A DNA stretch of 46,232 nucleotides from a virus, in IMG/VR virus record IMGVR_UViG_3300040808_002695, positions 1 to 46,232 of that record; one strand, 5' to 3'. A program made the translations under genes and the position numbers. The notes under the pieces were generated by a model. That model did no database searches. It saw only the letters and a list, made by a program, of their open reading frames with translations, and had not been told where the DNA came from. Shown in pieces: positions 1 through 17,764 of the stretch. Numbering within the stretch: the stretch's first letter is position 1; each line of letters opens with the position of its first letter.

Positions 1-1149
1 GTCACAGACCCGCCGTATGGACTCGGCAACACGAGCCCGAAGCACGTTGCCGCGTGTCTTCAGGCATGGAGCGCAGGCGATACGTGGCAACCGAAGGGGC
101 GCGGATTCATGGGGCGCGAGTGGGACGCATGGGTCCCCCCTCCTGAGCTCTGGCGCGAGGTGCTGCGTGTCCTCAAACCCGGCGGGCACGCGGTCATATT
201 CGCTGGCTCGCGTACTCAAGACCTGATGAGCGTCTCGCTTCGCCTCGCAGGGTTCGAGATCCGCGACACACTCATGTGGTTGTACGGTACAGGGTTCCCA
301 AAGTCGCTGGATGTCTCAAAGGCGATAGATAGAGCGCTAGGCGCCGAGGGACAACGCGAAGTAATCGGGCTCAAAACAAAGCCTGACGGCACCTTGAAAT
401 CTGCTCGCGATTTCCTCAGAACCGAAGGGGTACTCTCAAGGCTGGGTCAAAAGAACCTCGAAGAAGCCGAACGGGCGCGATATAACACAGCGAGCGCGAC
501 CGATGAGGCGCATCGATGGGAGGGATGGGGAACCGCGCTCAAGCCCGCGTATGAGCCCGCGATCCTCGCGCGGAAGCCGTTAAGCGGTACCGTCGCTCAT
601 TGTGTTCTTGAGCATAATACGGGCGCAATTAACATCGACGCGTCGCGTGTCGGGGATGAGGGGGGAACGCGCTCGGGGCGCATCGCGGGGAGCACCGTCT
701 CCGCTTTCGGAGACGGTTTGAACGGTGGGGGCGCGTATCCACTCAATAAGGGACGCTTCCCCGCGAACGTGCTCCTTGGAGAGTCCGTCGCCGACGAGCT
801 CGAAGAGCGCTCGCGCTACTTCTACACCCCCAAGGCGTCCAAAGCGGAGCGCGAGGCGGGCTTAGGTGACTTCGAGAAGCGACGCGCGAACACACACCCC
901 ACTGTGAAGCCTATCGAGCTGATGAGATACTTAGTTCGCATGGTAACGCCCCCTGAAGGCTTGGTGCTGGATCCCTTCGCGGGCAGTGGCTCCACACTCT
1001 GTGCCGCTGCCCTTGAGGGTTTTGAGTGTCTCGGCATCGAGCGGGAGGAAGAATATGTAGCGATCGCACGCGCGAGAGTGGCACATTGGGCAGCGGAGCG
1101 CTCACAGGGTCAGCTCTCACTCTTCGAGAGCGAGGTGAGTCATGAGTAA
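1..1149 (+). CDS. DNA methyltransferase (N6-adenine or N4-cytosine), 5' end cut by the window
   Basis: The frame is open from base 1, where the codons read VTDPPYGL, so the catalytic DPPY motif lies at the very start and the gene begins upstream. The C-terminal part carries HPTVKPIELMRYLV followed by DPFAGSGST, the S-adenosylmethionine-binding motif, and then the usual FECLGIEREEEY segment. Catalytic motif before SAM motif is the order of beta-class amino-methyltransferases. The enzyme would methylate an exocyclic amino group in phage DNA, probably to evade host restriction or mark its own DNA. The central 200 residues between the motifs are the variable target-recognition region. Its stop overlaps the next start by 8 bp. 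Base specificity (A or C) cannot be told from sequence alone, and no partner restriction gene is visible. Confidence 0.9.
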   Translation, partial: VTDPPYGLGNTSPKHVAACLQAWSAGDTWQPKGRGFMGREWDAWVPPPELWREVLRVLKPGGHAVIFAGSRTQDLMSVSLRLAGFEIRDTLMWLYGTGFPKSLDVSKAIDRALGAEGQREVIGLKTKPDGTLKSARDFLRTEGVLSRLGQKNLEEAERARYNTASATDEAHRWEGWGTALKPAYEPAILARKPLSGTVAHCVLEHNTGAINIDASRVGDEGGTRSGRIAGSTVSAFGDGLNGGGAYPLNKGRFPANVLLGESVADELEERSRYFYTPKASKAEREAGLGDFEKRRANTHPTVKPIELMRYLVRMVTPPEGLVLDPFAGSGSTLCAAALEGFECLGIEREEEYVAIARARVAHWAAERSQGQLSLFESEVSHE

Positions 1150-3768: not shown

Positions 3769-4184
3769 GCGACGGTCGCGGGGATCTCAGTGTCCTCGGA
3801 GCGTCGGTTGGGGAGCTCCCCGAGTGAGCTGAGTCTGTTGATGATCGCGTATTGAAGATCGGCGAGCTGATCTCGATGGAGCTGGAGCTGGATCTGAGCA
3901 TCTCGCAACCGCGCGATCAACGCTTCTCGGTCAGCGTTGGCTTTCGCTAATGTGTCGCGGAGCTCCTCGACCTCTGAGGGATCGCGACCGCTGGCGATCG
4001 CCATCATCGACGAGATGCTCCCCGTGATGACTCCGAGGATCCCTACGAGGACATCTCTGTTCTCATCCACGATATGCACGCGGGCGAGGAAGACGACGAG
4101 CACCACAACCAGGAGAAGGAAGAAAACAGCAAACCACCAACCTCGCTTCGCTTTGCCTTCGTCTATGTCGGATTGATCAACCAT
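3738..4184 (-). CDS. Two-helix membrane protein with C-terminal coiled coil
   Basis: The 148-residue product has a charged N-terminus, a strong membrane helix (residues about 16-34, FAVFFLLLVVVLVVFLA), a short loop and a second membrane helix (about 45-65). A charged coiled-coil-like helix (about 71-115) and a polar tail follow. The start has GAGAGG upstream and overlaps the end of the cyclase gene by 22 bp, so the two are co-expressed. Two interpretations fit. It may be a membrane effector or partner of the cyclase, as in defence operons pairing a cyclase with a transmembrane protein. It may instead be a holin-like protein near the CHAP lysin. No cyclic-nucleotide-binding motif can be seen, which weakens the effector idea. 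Confidence 0.7.
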   Translation of the reverse strand: MVDQSDIDEGKAKRGWWFAVFFLLLVVVLVVFLARVHIVDENRDVLVGILGVITGSISSMMAIASGRDPSEVEELRDTLAKANADREALIARLRDAQIQLQLHRDQLADLQYAIINRLSSLGELPNRRSEDTEIPATVAQWLPESEDS

Positions 4185-5005
4185 GTTACAGCCTCTCTCA
4201 CTGTCTCGACGACGGTGACGATGTAATCAAACCATGCGAGCTCGTCGGCGATGCCCCAGAGCTCGAGGGCCTGTTTGTTAGATAAGAAGGGATAGAGTAA
4301 TACGAAGAGGTACACGAGCGCGACAATCGCGCCTCTCACGATCCCCCATGCGAGCCATTCTCTCCAGCGTCGATGACGAGCATGGGAACGAACGCGCTTC
4401 GCACCTCCGAGGCGTTGAGCCTTCTCGTGCCCAGGGGGAGGTTGCAGGGCTTCGATCTTTGAGCCGACTGCGAACAGCGTCACGGGCTCAGGGACGCCTT
4501 TAAATCTGTAGAGCCCCACACATGCGAAGCGGGTTCCTTGTGGGGTCGTTCCGTTGACTTGATGTTTCACTCGCCTCATCGCGTCAGCGGTGAGGATGAC
4601 TTGACCCGCTCCACATACGCTCATTGTTCGCGCCGCGATGTTCTTCGCGACGCCTTCGAGCTCGATACGTTTCGCGCCGACCAAGACATCGAGCTCGTGC
4701 TGTTGGATCTCGACGACTGATCCCCAATGAATCCCGATGCGTGCTTGCAAGTGGGTCTTCAGGGGGACCTCTGCCTGATAATACAAAGCCCAGTTGAGCG
4801 CATCAATCGGTCGGTCAAAACTCAAAAGAAATCCGTCGGAACGGTCGATCTCTCGCCCCCGAAATCGATATAGTAGCGACCTCGCAAGGCGGTCGTGATA
4901 TTGTAGCCAAGTCGCGGCGCGGACTGCGCCCACCCGAGACACAAACGCGGTCGAGCCGATTAAGTCGATCAATACTATGGTTAGATTTCGTTGCTTGAGC
5001 TCCAT
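4163..5005 (-). CDS. Class III nucleotidyl cyclase with C-terminal membrane anchor
   Basis: The 280-residue product has a complete class III cyclase homology domain at residues 8-182. VLIDLIGSTAF holds the first metal-binding Asp (D14). GREIDRSDGFLLSF is the beta-hairpin with the second metal Asp (D57). ARIGIHWGSV follows. VAKNIAARTMS supplies the transition-state Asn122 and Arg126. LYRFKGVPEPVTLFAV ends the fold. After a basic linker, residues about 222-242 form a membrane helix. Such enzymes make cyclic nucleotides from NTPs; the substrate (ATP, GTP, UTP, CTP) cannot be read. ATG at 5005 is chosen because GGAG precedes it and the domain begins there; a longer frame to 5059 would overlap the lysin start. 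It is followed by the membrane-protein gene. Class III cyclases are rare in phages. Confidence 0.85.
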   Translation of the reverse strand: MELKQRNLTIVLIDLIGSTAFVSRVGAVRAATWLQYHDRLARSLLYRFRGREIDRSDGFLLSFDRPIDALNWALYYQAEVPLKTHLQARIGIHWGSVVEIQQHELDVLVGAKRIELEGVAKNIAARTMSVCGAGQVILTADAMRRVKHQVNGTTPQGTRFACVGLYRFKGVPEPVTLFAVGSKIEALQPPPGHEKAQRLGGAKRVRSHARHRRWREWLAWGIVRGAIVALVYLFVLLYPFLSNKQALELWGIADELAWFDYIVTVVETVREAVTWLINPT

Positions 5006-5028
5006 GTTTTCTCCGTGTTTCGGGGCTG

Positions 5029-5037
5029 TGTTATTAT
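5029..5037 (+). promoter_or_regulatory. Extended -10 promoter candidate for the lysin and structural operon
   Basis: TGTTATTAT is an extended -10 (TG-n-TATTAT), with no good -35. It lies about 20 bases before the lysin start codon at 5058, so the leader would be short and would include the AAAGGAG ribosome-binding site. It overlaps the minus-strand -10 of the cyclase. Confidence 0.4.
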
Positions 5038-5038
5038 A
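5033..5038 (-). promoter_or_regulatory. Exact TATAAT -10 for the cyclase operon
   Basis: The minus strand reads TATAAT at 5038-5033, about 28 bases before the cyclase start codon at 5005. The -35 region is poor (TTCATG at 18-bp spacing). It shares bases with the opposing extended -10, so RNA polymerase could not use both at once. Confidence 0.45.
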
Positions 5039-5057
5039 CCGTGAAAAGGAGATCCAC

Positions 5058-5699
5058 ATGAACGCAGAACGAATTGAGCGGATGATCGCTCGCGCATATG
5101 AGGCTCACGCGATGAACGTCGTTGAGCCTCCACGGAACATGTATGTCAATGATCGAGGAGAGCTACTCCACAAGGATCGATCAGGCGAGTACTACGAAGC
5201 GACCGCAGAGAGCAACGGGCACACGGGAGCCGAGATCATACGTTACATCCGAGAGGGCCTCGAATGGCCCAAGGACACACCATATCTCAATTCTTGGAAT
5301 TTGAAACTCGGGGGCTTCTCTTGGTGTGGAGCTTTCGCGGCGTGGTGCGACATCGAGCTGAGATCTGATCTACGAAAGAAAGTGCTCCCCTCTACGTATC
5401 GCCTCTGGGAGTATTGCCGAGGCACAGAGCGGGAGATCCCCCTCGATCAGATCCAACGAGGTGACATTGTCGTCATCGGGAAGAAGACCTCCAAACGATG
5501 GGGGCAGCACATCACCCGAGCTGTCGAGGTGACTCCGACTCACGTGCTCACCATTGAAGGGAACGCTCACGGAAGGCTCGGAGATGGCTCATGGGGGGAA
5601 GGCGTTGTGACACGTCGCCGTCCATTCAAGGGCCATCAAGAGGGGCGTGAGAGTTGGATTATGTTCGCATATCGTTTCACCGATGAGGATTACCAATGA
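5058..5699 (+). CDS. CHAP-domain peptidoglycan hydrolase (putative lysin)
   Basis: The 213-residue product contains FSWCGAFAAWC with catalytic Cys90, then GDIVVIGKK, GQHIT with His151, and LTIEGNA. These are the Cys, His and acidic/Asn blocks of the CHAP amidase/endopeptidase fold that cuts peptide bonds in peptidoglycan. The N-terminal 70 residues are not recognised and may bind the wall. AAAGGAG lies seven bases before the chosen ATG. A longer frame from 4977 is rejected because it would precede this site and overlap the cyclase start. No signal peptide is visible, so release would need a holin. The stop overlaps the portal start (ATGA), which puts the lysin at the head of the structural operon; a virion-associated role is possible. 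Confidence 0.85.
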   Translation: MNAERIERMIARAYEAHAMNVVEPPRNMYVNDRGELLHKDRSGEYYEATAESNGHTGAEIIRYIREGLEWPKDTPYLNSWNLKLGGFSWCGAFAAWCDIELRSDLRKKVLPSTYRLWEYCRGTEREIPLDQIQRGDIVVIGKKTSKRWGQHITRAVEVTPTHVLTIEGNAHGRLGDGSWGEGVVTRRRPFKGHQEGRESWIMFAYRFTDEDYQ

Positions 5700-7761: not shown

Positions 7762-8414
7762 AAGTGACGTTAGAAGCGAGCGCGGAGGAACTAGGAAACC
7801 TATCCCGCGAAAAGCTGATTGAGCGCATTACGAGGGCACTCCCGCGAGTCGTAGACTCAGCGATAGAGAGCGCGATGAGTAAGGGGAATGAGCGAGCGGA
7901 TACTCCTGCGGAGCCTCATGAGCGCATCAAGGGGAGTAAGAAGAACCCGAAGGGCTCCGCGCGAAGTGCGTCGAGTGGTGCTTCAATTAAGCTGTCAGAC
8001 TCGGTCATCGATGCACTTAAAGCAAAGGTTAAAGAGCACAACGAAAACGCGGATAAAGCTTGGCAACGAGTGACACTTGCTCAACTAAAAAGCGTTTGGC
8101 GACGCGGGGCGGGCGCGTTCTCTGTGTCTCATCGACCCTCACAAACTCGGTCTTCTTGGTCTTATGCTCGCGTTAATGCGTTCCTGAAGATCGTCATGGG
8201 AGCAGGCAACAAAAAGTACACTCAGGACGATGATCTCCTGCACCGAGACCACCCGAGACGCAAGGCAAAAAAGGCGCTAGAGCCTATGAGCAAAGCACGC
8301 GGGGGAGAGATCGACCTCGTCGCGGAGCTCGCCTCGCGAATGCGCGACCTCTATGAAGTGCGCCTGAGTGCTCTCGGAGATGATCTTGAGAGGCTGGTGT
8401 CCGATGACTCGTGA
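7758..8414 (+). CDS. Conserved hypothetical head-region protein
   Basis: The 218-residue product has a helical N-terminal 45 residues, a low-complexity Lys/Ser linker (about 56-76) and a conserved core. The core reads LKSVWRRGAGAFSVSHRP, then SWSYARVNAFLKIVMG and KKYTQDDDLL. This core occurs in proteins of phage head gene clusters, sometimes joined to the GGDAGDRWA domain encoded just upstream, which suggests the two act together. Function is unknown to me. The C-terminal helix overlaps the start of the next gene. Confidence 0.65.
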   Translation: MKVTLEASAEELGNLSREKLIERITRALPRVVDSAIESAMSKGNERADTPAEPHERIKGSKKNPKGSARSASSGASIKLSDSVIDALKAKVKEHNENADKAWQRVTLAQLKSVWRRGAGAFSVSHRPSQTRSSWSYARVNAFLKIVMGAGNKKYTQDDDLLHRDHPRRKAKKALEPMSKARGGEIDLVAELASRMRDLYEVRLSALGDDLERLVSDDS

Positions 8415-9429
8415 GGAACTCGCGGCGGAGACTCGGAAACTCGTTGCTTTGCACCATGATGCTTTTCTCGTTGAGCTCTTTGGGGAGGAGGGCTCGGGGC
8501 TCGATGAAGAGAGACTCGCAGAACTCCGAGAAGCGGAGCTCGTTGGAGACCCCTTAACATTCGCGGACGTGCCTCCATATGAGTTCATGTTGCTCGCCTC
8601 TCATGTGTTCGGAAATAACCCCGATCGCCTCGCAGAACTCAGAGAGCAGGGGATCGAGGAGTTTGAGCCTCTAGTCTCTGTGCAGCTCCGCGACTTGAGA
8701 AACACAGAGCGTTCAACGGTCGAGGTTCCAGAGGTCGCGACTCCCTCAGCACCAGAGGAACCAGAGGACGCTCCCCCGCGTTCTCCTCCTCCCGCTCCCG
8801 ATTGGATGAGCGTGGCTGAGCGGGGAGCATATGAGCGTCTTTCCTCACGGGCGGGTGAGTACATCAGAGGACTAGGAAACGCTTTGAGTGAGGAGCTTGA
8901 AAACGTAGCGGCGGAGGGTTGGCAGGGTGAGGAGATCATTGAAGAGGTAAACGCCGAACAACGAGCCGAGATGCTCGCCATACTCCGAGAGGAAGCGGCG
9001 AATGAGAGCGCAAGTGGCAGAGATGCGCGTCGGCTTGCGGGGACACTTGCGGATAGATCGAAGTACTACGCGCATAACTGGGAGCGCATCGCTCAAACCG
9101 AGTTACAGGGAGCGCACAACGAGGGGCGCGTGATCGCGGCAAGCGAGGCATATGGAGACGAAGCGCAGGTTGCTCGCATCCCCGAGAGCGGCGCGTGTGA
9201 TCAGTGTCTGCGTCTCTTCACCGAAGACGGGGGGAGACCTCGGGTCTTCGCCGTCGATGAGTTGACTGCTAACGGGGTCAATGTGGGGCGAAGTCGCGCT
9301 GATTGGCTCCCCACCGTGTTCCCCATCCATCCAAATTGTCGATGTGATACAATCACAGTTCCCCAGGGTTTCGTTGTGACTGAAGACGGAAGACTGCGAC
9401 GGCCCGAGACGTTGACAGAGGAGTCATGA
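8404..9429 (+). CDS. Mu F-like minor head protein (head morphogenesis)
   Basis: The 341-residue product ends in the Mu gpF/SPP1 gp7 domain. IAQTELQGAHNEGRVIAASE comes first, then ARIPESGACDQCLRLF with a Cys pair, and PTVFPIHPNCRCDTITVP near the C-terminus. This Cys/His arrangement is typical of the family, which joins the portal and the inside of the procapsid. A Pro-rich linker (residues about 117-143) separates an acidic N-terminal domain. The start at 8404, overlapping the previous gene by 11 bp, is preferred to the longer frame at 8368 because GAGAGG lies upstream. Confidence 0.85.
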   Translation: MTREELAAETRKLVALHHDAFLVELFGEEGSGLDEERLAELREAELVGDPLTFADVPPYEFMLLASHVFGNNPDRLAELREQGIEEFEPLVSVQLRDLRNTERSTVEVPEVATPSAPEEPEDAPPRSPPPAPDWMSVAERGAYERLSSRAGEYIRGLGNALSEELENVAAEGWQGEEIIEEVNAEQRAEMLAILREEAANESASGRDARRLAGTLADRSKYYAHNWERIAQTELQGAHNEGRVIAASEAYGDEAQVARIPESGACDQCLRLFTEDGGRPRVFAVDELTANGVNVGRSRADWLPTVFPIHPNCRCDTITVPQGFVVTEDGRLRRPETLTEES

Positions 9430-9899
9430 AATGAGTTTTAAGTTTGCGAGTTGGGTGCGTGCCCTGATGAAAGGGATGGGGCATCGCTATATCAAACGTA
9501 TCCCATATATGACTCCCAAGGGGCTACGCTACCGATACATTTATCGAGTGGATCATACGCATCAGGGGAAGCATGCCTTTCACGAAGATCACCTCATTCA
9601 AGGAACAAAGTTCGCGTTATCGACTGAAGATGGCGCTGAGTTTCATGGACACATCGAGTCTGTGGACGGCGATAAGGTGAAGTACGTGATTGATGACGGT
9701 CCGCAAAAGGGCGAAGTCGTCGAGACTACAAAACAAGAACTCGCGGCGAAACTGAACGAGGTGCATGGAGTGAGTGACAAACTCGCAGATGCACGAGACA
9801 AGGCTAGAGAAAACCTAGAACAGGTGAAGCAAAGCGGAGGCTCTGAAAAACAGATCGCTCGCGCACGTCGAAGACTGCTCGCTCTCGGTGGTACTGAGG
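9412..9899 (+). repeat. 488-bp direct repeat, copy 1
   Basis: From TTGACAGAGGAG, which includes the ribosome-binding site, through the first 157 codons of the following gene, the DNA is nearly identical to 11365-11852. The offset is exactly 1953 bp. Long stretches have no mismatch. The main difference is a short patch around the ARENLEQ/SADLEQ codons. Confidence 0.9.
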
Positions 9900-11353
9900 G
9901 CGCAGATACCTCTGTACGCGAGGTGACACAAGGTGAGGAGAACTTTGATACAATATCTGATGAACACAAAGAGTTTATCCAGAACAAGACGCGCGAGTTT
10001 TCAAGAGAGCTGATGCATGGGCTCATTTATGAGCAGACGAAGCGTGGGAAGATTAAGACCTTACGCCCCTTTAGAATATCAGGTGGTGCAGAAAACGCTT
10101 TGCGAAAAATGGCTCTCTCTGCATTGAGAGGTGAAGACCTTATACATGTGGGCCTTAAGAGAGTCATAATCTCTGACATCGCAAACGAAAATATGATAGG
10201 TAGACTCCAAGCGCTTCTATCCGCAGGAGATACCGTTGAAGATAAACAAGACACTCTCTACAAACAAGCACTGATAGAGGTTGCTGATCATATTGATGAA
10301 GGTGCGCAAAGACTTGCAGACTATGGAAGTTACACCGAAGGAGAGCACCGCGCTGTAAAACAGAGAACAGCTTATCTAAGAGCGTTGAGCGCTGAGATCG
10401 AGAGCGCACAACCAACCACGCCCCGCGAGCAGCTCACCGAGACCGCGCGCGAGGAGACACGGGGCGCGGATGCTCCTGAGATCGCGCAAGAGTCCGAGCC
10501 TCAACGTTTTAGTGACATAAATCGAGAGTATCAACGCAGACTCGCAGCCGCACGAGACAAGGCCAGACAAAACTTAGAGCAGGTGAAGCGACGCGGGGGG
10601 ACTAAAAAGCAGATAGCGCAAGCACGTCGAAAACTGCGTGCTCTCGGTGGAACGGAGACCGTTGACACTCGAGCGCCCGATTCAGAGGATCCCAAACCGA
10701 CAGCGCAGTCAGCTTCTCCGAGCGGAGTGACTGATTCATCGGGGCAGTTGATGAGTAAGCGCACGCTACAAGAGATCGTCGCGAACATTGTAGAGACTGA
10801 ATCCAAGACGAAGCGCCTCAATATAGCGGACCTTCATGGGGCCTTGTATCAGCGCGGGGTGTCGATTCGCCCTGGACAGCTGAAGGACTTGTTATCCGCA
10901 GCCAGTAGTCGAAACATCATCTCCCTCAAGCCGTGGACCGAGGGACTCGATAAAGTGGAGTATCCTGAATACTTGATCAGTAGGCTTCAGGGGAACATGA
11001 TGTATCATGTAGAACCTGCCAATGGTCCCAAGCGAGATCTCCCCGATACTCCCGCGACCGTTCAATTGAATGGACGACCTCTCTCTCTCGCAGAAGTATC
11101 TCAAGAAGTAGTGCGTAAACTGGGATCCAACGCGACATCGATCAAGGATCTGGAAGCGGGGTTGAGGGAGTCGGGGATGGATATCGAGACGGGGCATCTC
11201 CACGATCACTTGAACTTGCTCAATGAGAAGGGAATCGTCGCGTTTGAAGAGGATCGCATGCACACGAGAAATCCCGACGCAACGAGCTCTCTCGTTCGAC
11301 GAGATGAGCAAGGAATAACTCGCGTATATGATAAAGTGAGACTAGCTCAATAG
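9431..11353 (+). CDS. Modular head-region protein A (polyvalent-protein-like), winged-helix-like C-terminus
   Basis: This is a 640-residue protein. Residues 1-157 are almost identical to the next gene and contain GMGHRYIKRIPYMTP, a YRYIYRVDHT block, HAFHEDHLIQGTKF and DDGPQKGEVV. That combination is found in large modular proteins encoded beside Mu F genes. A 36-residue helical motif (ARDKA, then NLEQVK, GG, KQIA, RR, ALGGTE) occurs at about 119-155 and again at about 371-407. The C-terminal 190 residues look like two winged-helix-like units (SKRTLQEIVANIVE...; LSLAEVSQEVVRKLG...). Proteins of this type may be packaged and injected with DNA to act on the host; that is inference from context. 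Its RBS is GAGGAG. Confidence 0.65.
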   Translation: MSFKFASWVRALMKGMGHRYIKRIPYMTPKGLRYRYIYRVDHTHQGKHAFHEDHLIQGTKFALSTEDGAEFHGHIESVDGDKVKYVIDDGPQKGEVVETTKQELAAKLNEVHGVSDKLADARDKARENLEQVKQSGGSEKQIARARRRLLALGGTEGADTSVREVTQGEENFDTISDEHKEFIQNKTREFSRELMHGLIYEQTKRGKIKTLRPFRISGGAENALRKMALSALRGEDLIHVGLKRVIISDIANENMIGRLQALLSAGDTVEDKQDTLYKQALIEVADHIDEGAQRLADYGSYTEGEHRAVKQRTAYLRALSAEIESAQPTTPREQLTETAREETRGADAPEIAQESEPQRFSDINREYQRRLAAARDKARQNLEQVKRRGGTKKQIAQARRKLRALGGTETVDTRAPDSEDPKPTAQSASPSGVTDSSGQLMSKRTLQEIVANIVETESKTKRLNIADLHGALYQRGVSIRPGQLKDLLSAASSRNIISLKPWTEGLDKVEYPEYLISRLQGNMMYHVEPANGPKRDLPDTPATVQLNGRPLSLAEVSQEVVRKLGSNATSIKDLEAGLRESGMDIETGHLHDHLNLLNEKGIVAFEEDRMHTRNPDATSSLVRRDEQGITRVYDKVRLAQ

Positions 11354-11364
11354 TGAGCAGTACA

Positions 11365-11852
11365 TTGACAGAGGAGCCATGAAATGAGCTTTAGTTTTGC
11401 GAGTTGGGTGCGAGCGCTGATGAAGGGGATGGGGCATCGTTACATCAAACGTATCCCATATATGACTCCCAAGGGGCTACGCTACCGATACATTTATCGA
11501 GTGGATCATACGCATCAGGGGAAGCATGCCTTTCACGAAGATCACCTCATTCAAGGAACAAAGTTCGCGTTATCGACTGAAGATGGGGCGGAGTATCATG
11601 GTCACATCGAGTCTGTGGACGGCGATAAGGTGAAGTACGTGATCGATGACGGTCCGCAAAAGGGCGAAGTCGTCGAGACTACAAAACAAGAACTCGCGGC
11701 GAAACTGAACGAGGTTCATGGAGTGAGTGACAAACTCGCAGATGCACGAGACAAGGCAAGTGCGGATCTCGAACAAGTGAAACAAAGCGGAGGCTCTGAA
11801 AAACAGATCGCTCGCGCACGTCGAAGACTGCTCGCTCTCGGTGGTACTGAGG
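11365..11852 (+). repeat. 488-bp direct repeat, copy 2
   Basis: Second copy of 9412-9899, again starting just before the ribosome-binding site and ending after GGTGGTACTGAGG. The sharp ends and very high identity indicate a recent duplication or ongoing gene conversion. Confidence 0.9.
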
Positions 11853-13381
11853 ACAAAGAGGAGCTCGAGGAGGTCGCGGAAAGCCAAAAAGACGCAGAGG
11901 ATCGCCCAGTCGCGGAAGTCATCGCGGACAAGACGCTTAGAAATGCGCTCGGGAGAGAGTTGTATTATAATAATTACTTCTCACTCGGAGAGCAGCGTCC
12001 CGAGATGCAAGAGCGCCTTGAGTCTGAAATCTTGGAACTTGTTAAGAGAAAACTGTTGCCCCGTTTGAAGGAGGGTGGCGTCGATGTTAGGGAGGATGAC
12101 TCGCGCCTAAAGTATTTCGCTTTTGAATTTGCTAATAGTCTGAAGAGTAGAACATCGGGGGAAGACGTGACGGAGGCCTCTTATCAAGAGGACGCGACTC
12201 AAGTTTTCTTCGCGAAATTGCCAATCTTGTACGTTTCGGACTTAGCGGACTTAGAGGGAGAAAAGAGCCAACTCCCTCCGAGTGTCGTGGTCGCGTTTGA
12301 CAATTTAGATCTCAGACTCTCTCCGACTCAGGTGCAAGCGGTAGGAAGGCTAAAGATCCCGCCGACAGCTTTGGTTGAGAGAATGGAGACCTTGAAGGGA
12401 CGAGGCTTATCGACTAAAGACGTGGTCAGTGGATCTAAGACTCCTCTCACCAAAGACGGAGAGGGAACATACAACCTCGGGGATCTTGGGACGTTGAAGT
12501 TTAGTTTTCAGGGAACCCGACTGCATTATGAAATCGTAGATGCAAAGGGTCAACGCTCTGCGGCTAGGGCGTTGAACTACTGGAAGCCTCTCCGAAACGT
12601 AGATAGAAAAGAAGTTCCTCGGGCGGTGATGAGCGCGGTTCTCTCGGGAGGCCAAGTTCCGCGCACCAAAGAAGACACTCAGCGAGAACTCGCGATGTTA
12701 TGGGGAATGAAGAAGGCGGATAAAGTCATCGCAGTAGATTCCAAACTCGCAGAGATCGAGGATCAGCAGTATGTCCAATCCCCCGTTGATGCGGCTGTGT
12801 CTTCAGGATTTGGGAATCCTACGGTCCAGGATCTGGAAGATCTGAGCGCTTCGGATAGAAAAGCGATGTTCGCTCTGGGCGAAGATGGGCGATACTCTGG
12901 CGCGATATATCAACGTGCTGGTTATGTGTTCGCGACCGATGGTCGTCAAGTGGCCTTCCGTGTCGCGGAATCAGGGCGTGAAAGGCGTATAACCAACACG
13001 GGAGGACTCGCGGCGTCGGCTCCCCAGATCACCGCCGTTCTCTCCGAAAAAAGCCCGAGTTTCTCTCTCGATCGCGGGGGGATTAGGCACTTGAGACGAG
13101 CGCTCAAAATCAACCCGTCTGCACAAGTAGATATCTCCGTGGAAAATGGTGCGTACACTCTCAGCATGCAGGGGAGAAAAGTGGGCCAATTTCCGCGTCA
13201 TATAGGCGACGAGCTCTCTGAGCGCGAGGTGGTGACAATCAGAGCAGAATTTCTCTCCAATGCGCTAAAGCACGCTAAAGAGACCGCGACGCTTCACCTT
13301 TCAGGTAAAGATAAGCCTGTCACGACGACAACAGATTCGGGGCTACATTCCATGTTCATGCCAATGATACGTGCAACCTAA
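11384..13381 (+). CDS. Modular head-region protein B with sliding-clamp-like C-terminus
   Basis: This 665-residue protein shares residues 1-157 with protein A and then diverges. Residues about 160-480 are unrecognised and mostly helical. Residues about 485-665 resemble the later domains of a DNA polymerase III beta-type clamp. GYVFATDGRQVAFR fits the ATDG-xx-LA strand motif. GGIRHLRRALKI and AEFLSNALKHAKE fit the helix of each clamp domain. KPVTTTTDSG and LHSMFMPMI near the end fit the terminal P-x-x-I/T...MPM pattern. If correct, it is a clamp fold carried by a protein made with virion proteins, either as a structural scaffold or as an injected factor that binds host clamp partners. By-eye resemblance only. 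Confidence 0.6.
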   Translation: MSFSFASWVRALMKGMGHRYIKRIPYMTPKGLRYRYIYRVDHTHQGKHAFHEDHLIQGTKFALSTEDGAEYHGHIESVDGDKVKYVIDDGPQKGEVVETTKQELAAKLNEVHGVSDKLADARDKASADLEQVKQSGGSEKQIARARRRLLALGGTEDKEELEEVAESQKDAEDRPVAEVIADKTLRNALGRELYYNNYFSLGEQRPEMQERLESEILELVKRKLLPRLKEGGVDVREDDSRLKYFAFEFANSLKSRTSGEDVTEASYQEDATQVFFAKLPILYVSDLADLEGEKSQLPPSVVVAFDNLDLRLSPTQVQAVGRLKIPPTALVERMETLKGRGLSTKDVVSGSKTPLTKDGEGTYNLGDLGTLKFSFQGTRLHYEIVDAKGQRSAARALNYWKPLRNVDRKEVPRAVMSAVLSGGQVPRTKEDTQRELAMLWGMKKADKVIAVDSKLAEIEDQQYVQSPVDAAVSSGFGNPTVQDLEDLSASDRKAMFALGEDGRYSGAIYQRAGYVFATDGRQVAFRVAESGRERRITNTGGLAASAPQITAVLSEKSPSFSLDRGGIRHLRRALKINPSAQVDISVENGAYTLSMQGRKVGQFPRHIGDELSEREVVTIRAEFLSNALKHAKETATLHLSGKDKPVTTTTDSGLHSMFMPMIRAT

Positions 13382-13409
13382 GATCCTCAGCATAGCAGGA
13401 GATGATTAA

Positions 13410-14429
13410 ATGCCATTTAAGAACGAACACGCAGCGCGTCAAAGTGACCCTGCACAATATTCCGAGTTTCGCCGATTCAAACCGCAGGGAGTCCCAGATG
13501 GCCTTGAGATGATTCTCGGCATCAAGGACGCGAAAAGCGAGATCCAAAGTATCCGAGCGGACGCGGACAAGATGACAAAAGACGAGTTGATTCAATGGCT
13601 TCGAGAACATGACTTTATGTTCGATGACGTAGAAGAGGCTACGAAGAAGAGTCTTGACACGTTCGCGCGTTGGGTCCCCATGTCACTTGATGACTTGACC
13701 AAAGGTCGCGAAGAGTCAGAGGATAGTGAAGACGAAGAGCTTTCTAAAGCGGTGATCGGAGGGATCTGCTCTACCCGAGACATGGACCTCGAGGGTGAAA
13801 TTGTCGAGCAAGATGGGATCGATTGGTCTTACTTCCTCGAGAATGGATGGTTCAATCACGAGCACGAGCAAGGCCCGAGCGCCGTTCTTGGGCATCCCGT
13901 GAAGATCGAGCCCGTTGACGACGAGCGAACTCGTGTCGAGGGCATCTTGTACCTAGATAAGAAGTTAGGCCGAGATGTTTATGAAACGGCGAACGCGATG
14001 AAGAAGGCCGGGGGAGAGCGCTCACTTGGCTTCAGCGTCGAGGGACAGGTGCTTCTCCGAGATCCCCAGAATCAGAAGCGGATTCTCAAAGCTCGAGTAC
14101 TCAATGTGGCGATCACTGCGATGCCTGTGAATCCGCACACGAACCTTGAGCTCATCGCGCGTTCGATTGGGGCGAGCATCGGATATCAAGAGGCATCGAT
14201 CCCCGATGCAGATGCAGCGATGAGTGCGCTCGTGCAACAAAGCCTTGATCGTAGACTGAGCTCTGCTACGTATGGAGCAGAGAAAAAGCGCACGTTGAAC
14301 TCTGCTGAGGTTAGAGAGCTCCTCCGCGAGAGGTTGCCGAGTACCGCAGATAAAGACCTAGATGTCCTCGTCGAGAAATTGATCAAACTCGCAAAGTCAA
14401 CGAAAAATACACACGCTGATAAATTATGA
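13410..14429 (+). CDS. Prohead protease (caudovirus serine protease)
   Basis: The 339-residue product starts with the EHAARQSDPAQYSEFRR block seen in XkdF-type proteins. The protease core contains AVIGGICSTRDMDLEGEIV, WFNHEHEQG with the likely catalytic His150, VEGILYLDK and GGERSLGFSVEG with the likely nucleophile Ser205. It ends with VLNVAITAMPVNPHT, a typical close of this fold. The enzyme would cleave the scaffold and capsid protein inside the procapsid and then itself. It precedes a scaffold-like gene and the capsid gene, as expected. The C-terminal 90 residues are charged and helical and may be a removable anchor. Confidence 0.85.
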   Translation: MPFKNEHAARQSDPAQYSEFRRFKPQGVPDGLEMILGIKDAKSEIQSIRADADKMTKDELIQWLREHDFMFDDVEEATKKSLDTFARWVPMSLDDLTKGREESEDSEDEELSKAVIGGICSTRDMDLEGEIVEQDGIDWSYFLENGWFNHEHEQGPSAVLGHPVKIEPVDDERTRVEGILYLDKKLGRDVYETANAMKKAGGERSLGFSVEGQVLLRDPQNQKRILKARVLNVAITAMPVNPHTNLELIARSIGASIGYQEASIPDADAAMSALVQQSLDRRLSSATYGAEKKRTLNSAEVRELLRERLPSTADKDLDVLVEKLIKLAKSTKNTHADKL

Positions 14430-14436
14430 TACACTC
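14425..14436 (+). promoter_or_regulatory. TATGATACACTC element before the scaffold and capsid genes
   Basis: TATGAT matches five of six -10 bases and belongs to a 12-base string found with one change at 19967-19978, upstream of the tail sheath gene. It lies about 33 bases before the scaffold start. No -35 is evident, so a late activator or modified polymerase would be needed. Both copies overlap stop codons, so chance is possible. Confidence 0.35.
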
Positions 14437-14468
14437 AACCCCATTAACCTTAATCTGGAGAACACAGG

Positions 14469-15125
14469 ATGCTCGATCAAATGAAGAAGCACCTCGAGGC
14501 TAAAGGCGTAGATCCTTCGGTCCTCGATGACTATGAGAGCAGTGTCGCAGAGGTCGTTGAAGTCGAGGCCGACGCCCTGACTGATGCCTTGACAGCACTG
14601 ACAAAAGCCATGTCCCCTCGTGAAGAAGAGATGAAAGAAGACAAAGTCGCAGAGCGCGAAGAGTCTCTTTTTGACTTGGATGATCAAGAGCCTATGGACG
14701 AAGACTCTATGGACGAAGAAGACATGGACGTAGAAAAAGCCTACTATCGCGACGCGATGAAGGCTCTCGCCGACAACACTGACAAGATGATCGCTGATAT
14801 GAACAAGCGACTTGATGCAGTGATGAAGGGCGTTGAAGCGATGATGGAGTCAATGAAGGGCATGCAAGCGGAGAGTGAGGGGATGAATAAGAGTCTCAAC
14901 GCGCTTCGTAAAGAGCCTCAAGCTCCTCGCGCTGTTACTTCGGCTACTGCTCAGGCCCCAGCTCCTACGGGTCCCAGCCGTCAAGATTTCATCAAAAAAG
15001 GGTTGTCGATGTTGCAGGACAGCGACGTCGATACATTGCGAAAGGGAGCTGTACGCTCTGCGATCGCTCAACTTGAAGCGGGGATTCCTGTCTCCGCGAT
15101 CTCACACATCATTGATCTCGATTAA
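14469..15125 (+). CDS. Putative capsid scaffolding protein
   Basis: The 218-residue protein lies between protease and capsid genes. It is acidic in the first half (LDDQEPMDEDSMDEEDMDVE) and has long helices rich in Met, Lys and Glu (DKMIADMNKRLDAVMKGVEA onward) that suggest coiled coils. A Pro/Ala linker (about 153-172) and a compact C-terminal helical domain follow. This design of acidic helical body plus C-terminal capsid-binding segment is usual for scaffolds, and gene order supports it. A strong GGAG site precedes the start. There is no sequence motif that proves it, and a decoration or minor head protein is possible. Confidence 0.65.
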   Translation: MLDQMKKHLEAKGVDPSVLDDYESSVAEVVEVEADALTDALTALTKAMSPREEEMKEDKVAEREESLFDLDDQEPMDEDSMDEEDMDVEKAYYRDAMKALADNTDKMIADMNKRLDAVMKGVEAMMESMKGMQAESEGMNKSLNALRKEPQAPRAVTSATAQAPAPTGPSRQDFIKKGLSMLQDSDVDTLRKGAVRSAIAQLEAGIPVSAISHIIDLD

Positions 15126-15140
15126 GATTAAGGAGTCACC

Positions 15141-16577
15141 ATGTATTCATTTCCAGAAGCCAACGCGCTCGTTAATGTAGCTGACCTCGCAAACCTGAAC
15201 TCAGCTCTCCGCAAGAGTGCCGACATCGGCTACCAAAGCGCGGCGGGTACAAGTGGCGGAGATGCGGGTAACCTCTCTCCCCTAGTTCCGCAGAGCATCG
15301 AGAACACTCTCAGCTCAGCGACCTACACAATGAAAGAGCTCAGCCTTTGGCCTATGATTCCAAAGGTCAGCGTCACCAACACACTCCACGAGTACGCGGT
15401 GATCAACGATCACGGTTTAGATCTCGAGCCCTTCATCGCAGAGGGTAGCGCGGGAACAACAAACCGTTCTGAATACGAGCGTAAGAGCGTCCGCGTCAAG
15501 TATCTCGCAGAGCGTCGCGAGGTTACGGACGTAGCGGGACTCGTCGGTCTCATCGGCAACAACGCGAACGCAATCGCGGCAGAGACTGAGCGCGGCACAC
15601 TTCGCCTCATGCAGAAGCTCGAGCGCTCATTGTGGCACGCGAAAGAGGGCGTTAATCCGCTCGCGTTCGATGGTATCATCGAGCAGATCGAAAGCCACAA
15701 CAGTGGGAAGAACACTTTCGACCTTCGCGGCAAGTCACCGACACCTCGCCTCCTCCAAGAAGTGCTCTCAGAGATCCAGAGTGCTCCGCGCTTCGGCCGC
15801 CCCGACTGCATCTATGTTGAGCCTCGCATCCATGCAGAGCTCATCAAGTTCGCAGTTCAGTTCGGTCGCCATGATCAATTTGCGGCACTTCGCGCGGCTG
15901 ATGGGCTCACCTATGGTGTCCAAGAGCTCAACATCATGAGCCCTTATGGGCCAGTTCCAGTAAAGAGCGCACCCTTCTTGTTCAATGCGTACAACGCACC
16001 TAGCGCCGCTTCATCATCAGCGGCTCCAGCGGGCGCGACAGTGAGCTCAATCGCTTCTGGGGGGAGCGACGGGAAGTTTGTAGCGGACGACGAGGGCTTC
16101 TACGGATATCGTATCGTGAGCGTAAGCAACGACGGTTTCAGCGCACCAGTGAATGCGACTGCGGTTGAGGTGTCAGCTTCTGAGAAAGTCACAATCACTC
16201 TCGCAGATCAAGCAGACGCCGTGTTCTATAAGATCTATCGCAGTGAGAAAGCCGCGACTTCGGGCGCAGTGGACTTCTCAACGGCTCGCCTCATCGGTGA
16301 GATCAAGAATACAAGCGGCGCACCCACTGTTTTCATCGATGATAACAGCGTTGTTCCGAACACAAGCAAGATCGTCTTCGTACAGCATGACCCCACCGTC
16401 ATGGAGTTTGTACGTCTCTTGGACTTCTTCCGTCGTCCTCTCGCTGAGACCGCGACTTCAAAGCCCTTCTTGCTCATGCTCTTCGGTGCTCCGATCGTCA
16501 AAGTTCCGAATAAGTGTTTTGTTCTTCAAAACGCTGGAGTCACTGAGACAAGCGGCATGCTGGACACCACGATCTGA
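15141..16577 (+). CDS. Major capsid protein, HK97-like, with an inserted FN3/Ig-like domain
   Basis: The 478-residue protein follows protease and scaffold and has the features of an HK97-fold shell protein. LSPLVPQSIENTL comes first, then a helical spine segment (ANAIAAETERGTLRLMQKLE) and PDCIYVEPRIHAELIKFAVQ. The C-terminal A-domain strands include VEFVRLLDFFRRPLAE-like sequence and PFLLMLFGAPIVKV. Residues about 283-408 interrupt this with an all-beta, Ser/Thr-rich stretch containing YGYRIVSVSNDGFSAPV and VFYKIYRSEKA, the pattern of a fibronectin III or Ig-like domain. It would protrude from the shell. AAGGAG precedes the start. The encoded N-terminal section is short, consistent with separate scaffold protein. 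Confidence 0.85.
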   Translation: MYSFPEANALVNVADLANLNSALRKSADIGYQSAAGTSGGDAGNLSPLVPQSIENTLSSATYTMKELSLWPMIPKVSVTNTLHEYAVINDHGLDLEPFIAEGSAGTTNRSEYERKSVRVKYLAERREVTDVAGLVGLIGNNANAIAAETERGTLRLMQKLERSLWHAKEGVNPLAFDGIIEQIESHNSGKNTFDLRGKSPTPRLLQEVLSEIQSAPRFGRPDCIYVEPRIHAELIKFAVQFGRHDQFAALRAADGLTYGVQELNIMSPYGPVPVKSAPFLFNAYNAPSAASSSAAPAGATVSSIASGGSDGKFVADDEGFYGYRIVSVSNDGFSAPVNATAVEVSASEKVTITLADQADAVFYKIYRSEKAATSGAVDFSTARLIGEIKNTSGAPTVFIDDNSVVPNTSKIVFVQHDPTVMEFVRLLDFFRRPLAETATSKPFLLMLFGAPIVKVPNKCFVLQNAGVTETSGMLDTTI

Positions 16578-16584
16578 GTAACTG

Positions 16585-16800
16585 ATGCGCTGGCAACATA
16601 AGACTCTTAGAGATTGCGTGCTTGATGTCGGATCGGGACGCGGAGCGATTCACATCGATGCTGACGGATTCGTCCATGAAGCGAACGAGTACGCGATGAA
16701 AGCGCTCACTCAATGGGCCGAAGTGATTGGATTCACAGAGGTCCCTACGAAGCCAGCGCCACAGAAGAAGCGGCGCACGCGTCGCAAAGACGACACATAA
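16585..16800 (+). CDS. Small basic-tailed protein of the head cluster
   Basis: The 71-residue product follows the capsid gene after seven bases. The first 50 residues look like a small mixed fold (VLDVGSGRGAIHIDADGFVH), and the last 20 are Lys/Arg-rich (PQKKRRTRRKDD). Small genes at this position often encode head-tail or head-fibre accessory proteins, and the basic tail could contact DNA. No family is recognised. Confidence 0.6.
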   Translation: MRWQHKTLRDCVLDVGSGRGAIHIDADGFVHEANEYAMKALTQWAEVIGFTEVPTKPAPQKKRRTRRKDDT

Positions 16801-16816
16801 GTCTTAGGGGTCGATC

Positions 16817-17764
16817 ATGGGGATCTATACGCAGATAACGCCGCAGTTCATCAAAGATACGACGCTCCTCGGGGTCGACCTCACTTTAGATGATGGATCG
16901 AACTATCCAGACATCATCTATACTCAGTCTATCCAAGCCGCGATTCGACACGTCGAGAGCGACTTGGGAATCAACGTTGAGCCGTTCTCGGTACTCCGAG
17001 AGCGCCACGACGCAGAGCGACAAGGTCAGTTTAGTTATTGGCCTTTTCGGCTCGACTATCGTCCCGTAGCTTCATTTGAGGCTGCGCGGATTAGGTTCGG
17101 GAGTTTTCAGGCCGTAGAGATCCCGCTCTCGTGGATCACGGCAACCTCGAACACTCACGGACAAATCCACCTGATCCCAAGCTCTGAGTCTTTGGGGTCT
17201 TACTTCTATCGAGCGGGCGTGCCCTTGATGGGCGGTTCGGGGATCTATGAATCTCGCGGGTATATACCTGCTTATTTCGAGTTCGACTACATCGCAGGTT
17301 TCACGGATCAAACGGGATCCGCGACCATTCCCGCAGGGGAAACAGAGGTCGAAGTCACACTCCCTAAGAGCTTATTGATGAGTTACATCGTAACCACGGA
17401 TCAGAGCGCCGTGAGGGTGAGTGGACGGAGTAACGACGGCTTCACTTTAGCGTTGAGTTCAGCGCTCGCCGATGACCTAGTGATCTCTTGGACTGCGGAT
17501 ACCTTACCCGCAGATCTGAAACAAGCAGTGGGTATCAAAGCCGCGACTCTCTTGTTGTTGCATGTGGCTGGAGATTTGATTCTCGGAGCGGGTATCGCGT
17601 CTCAATCCGTCAGCGTAGACGGACTCTCAACGAGCATCGATACCACATCCTCCGCGATGTATTCAGGCTACTCCGCACGCGCAGAGAACCTTGACAAGCA
17701 ATATAAACACTTGATGCAAGGTCTACGTGCTCAGTACCGCGTTACTCAGTTCGGAGTCGTCTGA
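16817..17764 (+). CDS. Head-tail connector (adaptor) protein, putative
   Basis: The 315-residue product starts with a helical segment where YTQSIQAAIRHVESDLGINV fits the adaptor family that docks under the portal (HK97 gp6/SPP1 gp15 type). The C-terminal third (LPADLKQAVGIKAATLLLLHV) completes the helical bundle. Between them is an inserted beta-rich domain (about residues 60-215), longer than in typical adaptors. Position after the capsid gene and before the neck genes supports the call. The stop overlaps the next start (TGATG). Confidence 0.65.
   Translation: MGIYTQITPQFIKDTTLLGVDLTLDDGSNYPDIIYTQSIQAAIRHVESDLGINVEPFSVLRERHDAERQGQFSYWPFRLDYRPVASFEAARIRFGSFQAVEIPLSWITATSNTHGQIHLIPSSESLGSYFYRAGVPLMGGSGIYESRGYIPAYFEFDYIAGFTDQTGSATIPAGETEVEVTLPKSLLMSYIVTTDQSAVRVSGRSNDGFTLALSSALADDLVISWTADTLPADLKQAVGIKAATLLLLHVAGDLILGAGIASQSVSVDGLSTSIDTTSSAMYSGYSARAENLDKQYKHLMQGLRAQYRVTQFGVV

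Follow-up and report, generated by a model that had tools for sequence, protein, structure and literature searches.

A reduced sliding-clamp module at the end of a head-cluster protein of a contractile-tailed phage

Why would a phage gene located among head genes end in a domain that resembles the bacterial beta clamp (DnaN)? The question was raised by a 46,232-base IMG/VR virus record (IMGVR_UViG_3300040808_002695), which was analysed at its full length and is called the window here. The window comes from a contractile-tailed phage, in which a MuF-type protein, a prohead protease, a major capsid protein, a portal and a tail sheath were all recognisable, and a DNA polymerase (family A) and a helicase were also present. 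Two genes are found between the MuF gene and the protease gene (Table 1). The second encodes a 665-aa protein, for which a C-terminal sliding-clamp-like domain had been predicted from the sequence. The first is a tandem paralogue showing 85% identity to the 665-aa protein over residues 1–184; this paralogue repeats part of its own N-terminal module and has an internal segment (approximately 9908–10489) with no match in its counterpart in the closely related locus L021. No family match was found for the middle region of the 665-aa protein, and the part of it just upstream of the clamp may correspond to an equivalent part in L012, L006, and L018.

Table 1. Features of the head-cluster region of the window, with the basis on which each was assigned.
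Feature	Position	Strand	Basis
MuF-type minor head protein, upstream	8368..9429	+	phrog_115, E 6.5e-10
Tandem paralogue, same N-terminal module, different cargo	9431..11353	+	
Gene for 665-aa protein (N-terminal module, middle region, C-terminal clamp-like module)	11384..13381	+	ORF list; clamp HMM and N-module HMM
N-terminal module (~130 aa), also in neighbouring gene	11384..11773	+	
Middle region of 665-aa protein	11774..12826	+	
Clamp-like module, residues 482–664	12827..13375	+	AF2, Foldseek/VIA, phrog_947, leave-one-out HMM
Half-domain 1, residues 483–528 (ATDG at 12932–12943)	12830..12967	+	hhalign
Half-domain 2, residues 556–613; one helix and strands in model	13049..13222	+	AF2, hhalign
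Half-domain 3, residues 613–665 (MPM at 13358–13366)	13220..13378	+	hhalign
Out-of-frame remnant, 3′ end of L021-type clamp allele	13380..13409	+	identical sequence
Prohead protease, directly downstream	13410..14429	+	phrog_1028, E 3e-48; PF04586 above cut-off
Major capsid protein	15141..16577	+	phrog_752, E 8.7e-64

The C-terminal module and its relation to DnaN

Residues ~482–664 are predicted to fold like a bacterial beta clamp. An AF2 model of residues 457–665, built with a 13-sequence alignment (A4), had a mean pLDDT of 80.6 and a pTM of 0.79. Foldseek comparison of the model with the PDB gave 358 matches at E ≤ 0.001, and all of the best 50 were beta clamps (best E 2.3e-8). VIA-align placed model positions 26–208 (protein residues 482–664) on residues 129–366 of Thermotoga maritima DnaN (Z 14.4, rmsd 3.1, 173 aligned), and all 50 rows among the matches listed were DnaN. 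At the profile level, the cut-out domain matched phrog_947 (DNA polymerase processivity factor) with an E-value of 1.7e-6, obtained with a fragment that was cut out after the domain had already been proposed; the same family was matched by 8 of 13 diverse family members (E ≤ 0.1). Searched against the PDB, the 13-sequence profile ranked a beta clamp first (E 0.0016), followed by PCNAs interspersed with unrelated proteins such as FtsA (E 0.043) and RecA (0.15). HMMs trained with one sequence group left out at a time recovered all nine groups (9/9; E 6.7e-11 to 8.7e-37), whereas ORFs from loci lacking a clamp match scored no better than E 0.023. This is a fairer test than the clamp HMM itself, because 13 of the 15 loci matched by the latter had contributed members to its training.

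Single-sequence and whole-protein searches returned little. For the uncut 665-aa protein, Pfam and NCBIfam gave no beta-clamp (DnaN) model and PHROGs gave no match at all. Neither phrog_947 nor PF02768 had a match in the six-frame translation of the record, and PF02768 was matched by one of the 13 family members (E 0.012). The window fragment alone gave a weak match to a nine-sequence DnaN profile (E 0.004), with the best stretch (94–141) falling on the wrong part of the profile. No clamp was retrieved by PDB searches with single sequences, neither the whole 665-aa protein nor its L040 relative had a tblastn match in 50,697 phage records, and padloc found nothing in the clamp proteins.

Both profile–profile comparison and structure prediction of the C-terminus against DnaN thus gave a clamp fold and not an unrelated one, as the original prediction had proposed. 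The ATDG and terminal MPM motifs that it named are present (residues 517–520 and 659–661), but the model contains three helices (residues 489–499, 564–576, and 621–628) where two clamp-type helices had been expected. The domain start that it gave, position 12838, lies two bases out of frame: residue 485 begins at 12836, and translation from 12838 runs into stops.

The module comprises ~183 residues with three helices, compared to ~366 aa and six half-domains in three domains for DnaN, which forms a dimeric ring. DnaN was therefore split into its six half-domains, and parts of the module were compared with each by hhalign. Half-domain 1 corresponded to the start of DnaN domain 2 (probability 93.1; the other five ≤ 0.6), and none of 100 column shuffles reached its score. 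Half-domain 3 corresponded to the end of domain 3 (95.7; next 46.8). Its observed score of 40.4 was reached by a single shuffle out of 100, which gave an anomalous value of 127.8 across 10 columns, probably a numerical artefact; the runner-up among the shuffles scored 15.4. The middle half-domain alone matched none of the six above probability 7, whereas hhalign over the whole module aligned it with the first half of domain 3 and pointed to the second half of domain 2 as the one that may be missing. No part of the module matched a half of domain 1 above probability 17.3, against 93–96 for the true matches.

The module is thus a reduced bacterial beta clamp with three of six half-domains and domain 1 absent. 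It shares the build of a beta clamp and is related to it by sequence; since the six-half-domain architecture was looked for and not found, it is not a member of the ring-forming beta-clamp family. A full clamp ring was rejected, as domain 1 is absent. Like DnaN, the module has the fold of the start of domain 2 and the end of domain 3, the ATDG and MPM motifs and, judging by its residues, part of the peptide-binding pocket; unlike DnaN, it is fused to an unrelated N-terminal part of ~480 residues, within a head operon.

The E. coli residues of the pocket that binds clamp-binding motifs, listed in a passage of PMC11139829, map to the two recognised half-domains and to the linker before domain 3. 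The window protein keeps T172, G174, P242, V247, M362, P363, and M364, and differs at H175 (R), R176 (Q), N320 (R), and R365 (I). In the 13-row alignment, position 172 is T in 11 and S in two sequences, and G174 (13), P242 (12), M362 (9), P363 (7), and R365 (7) are kept to different degrees. L040 keeps more of the pocket than the window (ATDGHR, IMPMR), the 97%-identical relative L001 has R at the R365 position, and L021, L023, and L027 have lost most of the C-terminal motif. The module thus appears to keep much of the partner-docking pocket, incompletely.

Gene order, N-terminal module and exchange of clamp cassettes

The clamp HMM matched 15 of 43 de-duplicated loci. Copies and overlaps (L002–L004, L006, L018, L025, L026, L049–L053, and L055) and reference loci (L056 and above) were left out of this set; L025 and L026 are separate contigs with a clamp region identical to that of L024. 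The clamp gene was located directly before the prohead protease gene in 13 of the 15 loci. One gene separates the two in L023, and in L041 the clamp gene has tail and baseplate genes around it. In L030, L039, L042, L044, and L023, the position ahead of the protease is taken by an N-module protein that lacks a clamp. The clamp was fused behind the N-terminal module in 14 of the 15 loci; the remaining one, L001, is truncated at the end of its contig. Structure prediction, profiles and this conserved gene order agree on a clamp fold in a head-cluster gene, the combination that had been regarded as unexpected.

The N-terminal module of ~130 residues was found in 42 distinct viral loci. Its AF2 model (pLDDT 67.7; best VIA Z 6.2) suggests, with low confidence, a small SH3/Tudor-like barrel, and structure comparison gave it no strong match. 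The best PHROGs match was to a family without a name (E 0.013), and a scan of genome contigs for the module gave 46 pattern matches, none of which was confirmed. In other phages, sister proteins with this module carry LPD1, ART-PolyVal and a methyltransferase domain, all above the Pfam cut-offs, and the LPD1 domain is found in a protein with a HEWGH motif. HExxH motifs and a C-terminal pattern near ‘DPHH..LTYAILKGY’ were observed in the N-module proteins of L015, L035, L037, and L047 (also L036 and L039); these proteins, recognised by motif alone, are perhaps a metallopeptidase cargo family.

Polyvalent proteins are described in passages of Iyer et al. (2017; PMC5512222) as multi-domain proteins encoded with MuF- and portal-type head genes, for which the authors proposed packaging and injection. 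The 665-aa protein is likewise encoded between MuF and the prohead protease, and it fits the polyvalent pattern because its N-terminal module heads varied cargoes (LPD1, ART-PolyVal, methyltransferase, clamp); Pfam found none of the polyvalent-associated domains (LPD1, ART-PolyVal) in the 665-aa protein itself. A similar arrangement is found in the T4 internal proteins Ip1–Ip3, in which, according to a passage of PMC12373910, a shared N-terminal leader precedes unrelated, variable cargo and the injected part diversifies. Here too, one shared N-terminal part is combined with different cargoes (clamp, LPD1, ART, methyltransferase and others), but unlike the T4 leader it is a module of ~130 aa, and its packaging role is putative.

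Pairwise comparison of the window with L021 showed 97.8% DNA identity over 8000–9899 and 98.4% over 13372–17000, whereas no DNA match was found by blastn over 11861–13371. Both cargoes are clamp-like, with amino acid identities of 21% and 19% in two alignments, and an HMM trained without L021 still found the L021 cargo (E 2.4e-20). The last stretch of the L021 allele lies out of frame just past the stop codon of the window gene (Table 1), and this remnant is the scar of a cassette exchange. The exchange is clamp for clamp: the sequence is replaced and the fold is kept. It permits a direct comparison of two nearly identical phages with different clamp alleles. In the relatives the clamp module is under purifying selection, with dN/dS values of 0.055 (L028/L031) and 0.129 (L040/L054), and also 0.27; the value for the window and L001 (0.65) derives from nine nucleotide differences in a pair too close to be informative.

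Possible function and alternative explanations

From these computational results we infer, tentatively and as something close to an even bet, that the half-clamp is a head-packaged and injected cargo of a polyvalent-type protein that binds proteins with clamp-binding motifs. By analogy with the leader of the T4 internal proteins, the shared N-terminal module would target the 665-aa protein to the head, and the protein would then enter the cell along with the phage DNA. There the clamp module, ring-less, would present its pocket and capture host (or phage) proteins with clamp-binding motifs, for example replication and repair factors, which would be either diverted from the host clamp or brought to the incoming DNA. 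Capture of host clamp-binding proteins after injection, one of the two functions originally suggested, is compatible with the data, because most of the pocket lies in the two identifiable half-domains and the family of the gene is of the polyvalent type. A more specific version, in which swappable half-clamps are packed in the head and injected, act as ring-less mimics of the host clamp competing for clamp-binding-motif proteins, and are exchanged as alleles to match hosts or evade recognition, is possible but doubtful. If such delivery is real, phages would bring in a ready-made mimic of a replication hub at the moment of infection, the sliding clamp would join the activities delivered by virions, and nature would have supplied a competitive inhibitor of interactions that depend on clamp-binding motifs.

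The main rival is a role in replication or late transcription inside the cell. T4 gp45 is a processivity and late-transcription factor, and the 665-aa protein might similarly be made in the infected cell and serve the family A polymerase of the phage or its late promoters, its place among late genes reflecting timing only. We consider this unlikely. In its favour, searches of the window and of G004, both of which have a family A polymerase, found no full DnaN, and two N-module phages that lack clamp cargo (G011 and G012) have one, as if the two replaced each other: none of 11 records with clamp cargo gave a phrog_947 match, against 2 of 2 related records without it. This anti-correlation comes from few and mostly partial records, the clamp module has three half-domains only and is fused behind the N-module of polyvalent-type proteins, and a clamp-binding motif was not found in the polymerase of the window.

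Rather less likely is an assembly part, a clamp fold that binds scaffold, protease or portal inside the prohead and never leaves the head. Such a role would suit the position directly before the protease gene, which is fixed in 13 of 15 loci, but in four loci (L030, L039, L042, and L044) this slot holds N-module proteins without a clamp, and the sister proteins bear enzyme cargo, unlike assembly parts.

The module could also be a poison subunit that pairs with the host clamp via a dimer-interface half-domain and blocks its loading or closure. Twort GP168, listed in a table of PMC11139829, is a known case of a phage protein directed against the host clamp, and the whole-module alignment matches the middle part to the first half of domain 3, home of Ile272 and Leu273, the dimer-interface residues altered in a monomeric double variant named in a literature passage. 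The middle half alone matches no particular DnaN half-domain, and we regard this explanation as improbable.

More improbable still is that the module is a passenger left over from a phage dnaN gene. Relatives have a full DnaN elsewhere, one of which had the best score of all full clamps compared with the clamp-family HMM (E 3.6e-13), and the pocket has decayed in some lineages; against this stand the two lowest dN/dS values, the reading frames that are open in 15 loci and an exchange that swaps clamp for clamp. Finally, the other function originally suggested, a ring encircling DNA during packaging, draws on the clamp fold itself but is highly improbable, as three of six half-domains are present and the domain 1 halves match nowhere above probability 17.3, so that a normal ring is unlikely.

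Related phage clamps and further observations

The module resembles the phage mini-clamps Bcep43 gp15 and Flyfo siphovirus Tbat1_6 gp74, which are clamps of ~190 aa without domain 1. Bcep43 gp15 (NP_958120.1; record note ‘DNA Pol III b subunit fragment’) is likewise located between head genes. Unlike the module described here, the mini-clamps are free-standing and not fused. Such free-standing proteins of ~190 aa are common and frequently annotated as RusA-like resolvases; 254 phage records match the Tbat1_6 protein, and the mini-clamp family phrog_3007 was matched by 1 of 13 members of our clamp family. In Tbat1_6, the DnaN profile covers 136–251 and 315–365, that is, domain 2 and the end of domain 3, and therefore a different half may be missing there than in the module.

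Mini-clamps and polyvalent proteins were already known, whereas a clamp as polyvalent-type cargo is apparently undescribed in the literature searched. Searches of that literature, from which most subscription papers are absent, turned up no head-cluster or polyvalent protein with a clamp domain. The terms clamp, DnaN, beta subunit, polymerase III, and processivity gave no hits in a term search limited to the main text of PMC5512222.

Two genes labelled ‘RusA-like Holliday junction resolvase’ (L058, 2441–3019; L057, 3070–3651) resemble beta-clamp fragments, which indicates that phage genes with this label are clamp fragments. Full-length DnaN genes were observed in N-module phages without clamp cargo, in L034 (817–1980, minus strand)/L070 and in L069, with phrog_947 E-values of 8.6e-61 and 1.8e-66, respectively. 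Another record, MG065686.1 (Campylobacter phage A18a), holds a dnaN gene whose protein is 100% identical to that of E. coli K-12, which suggests contamination or wrong assembly.

In the window, an ORF on the minus strand (4163–5059) resembles by eye a nucleotide-cyclase-type domain with C-terminal hydrophobic stretches, and its PHROGs search gave a weak holin match only. The DNA methyltransferase of the window (109–1149) ends in QLSLF (1111–1125), seven residues from the C-terminus, which fits the clamp-binding consensus QLxLF. Among 598 ORFs of 150 aa or longer from the loci studied, one has a strict clamp-binding motif within 20 residues of its end, and 0.22 such motifs are expected anywhere in the proteins of the window.
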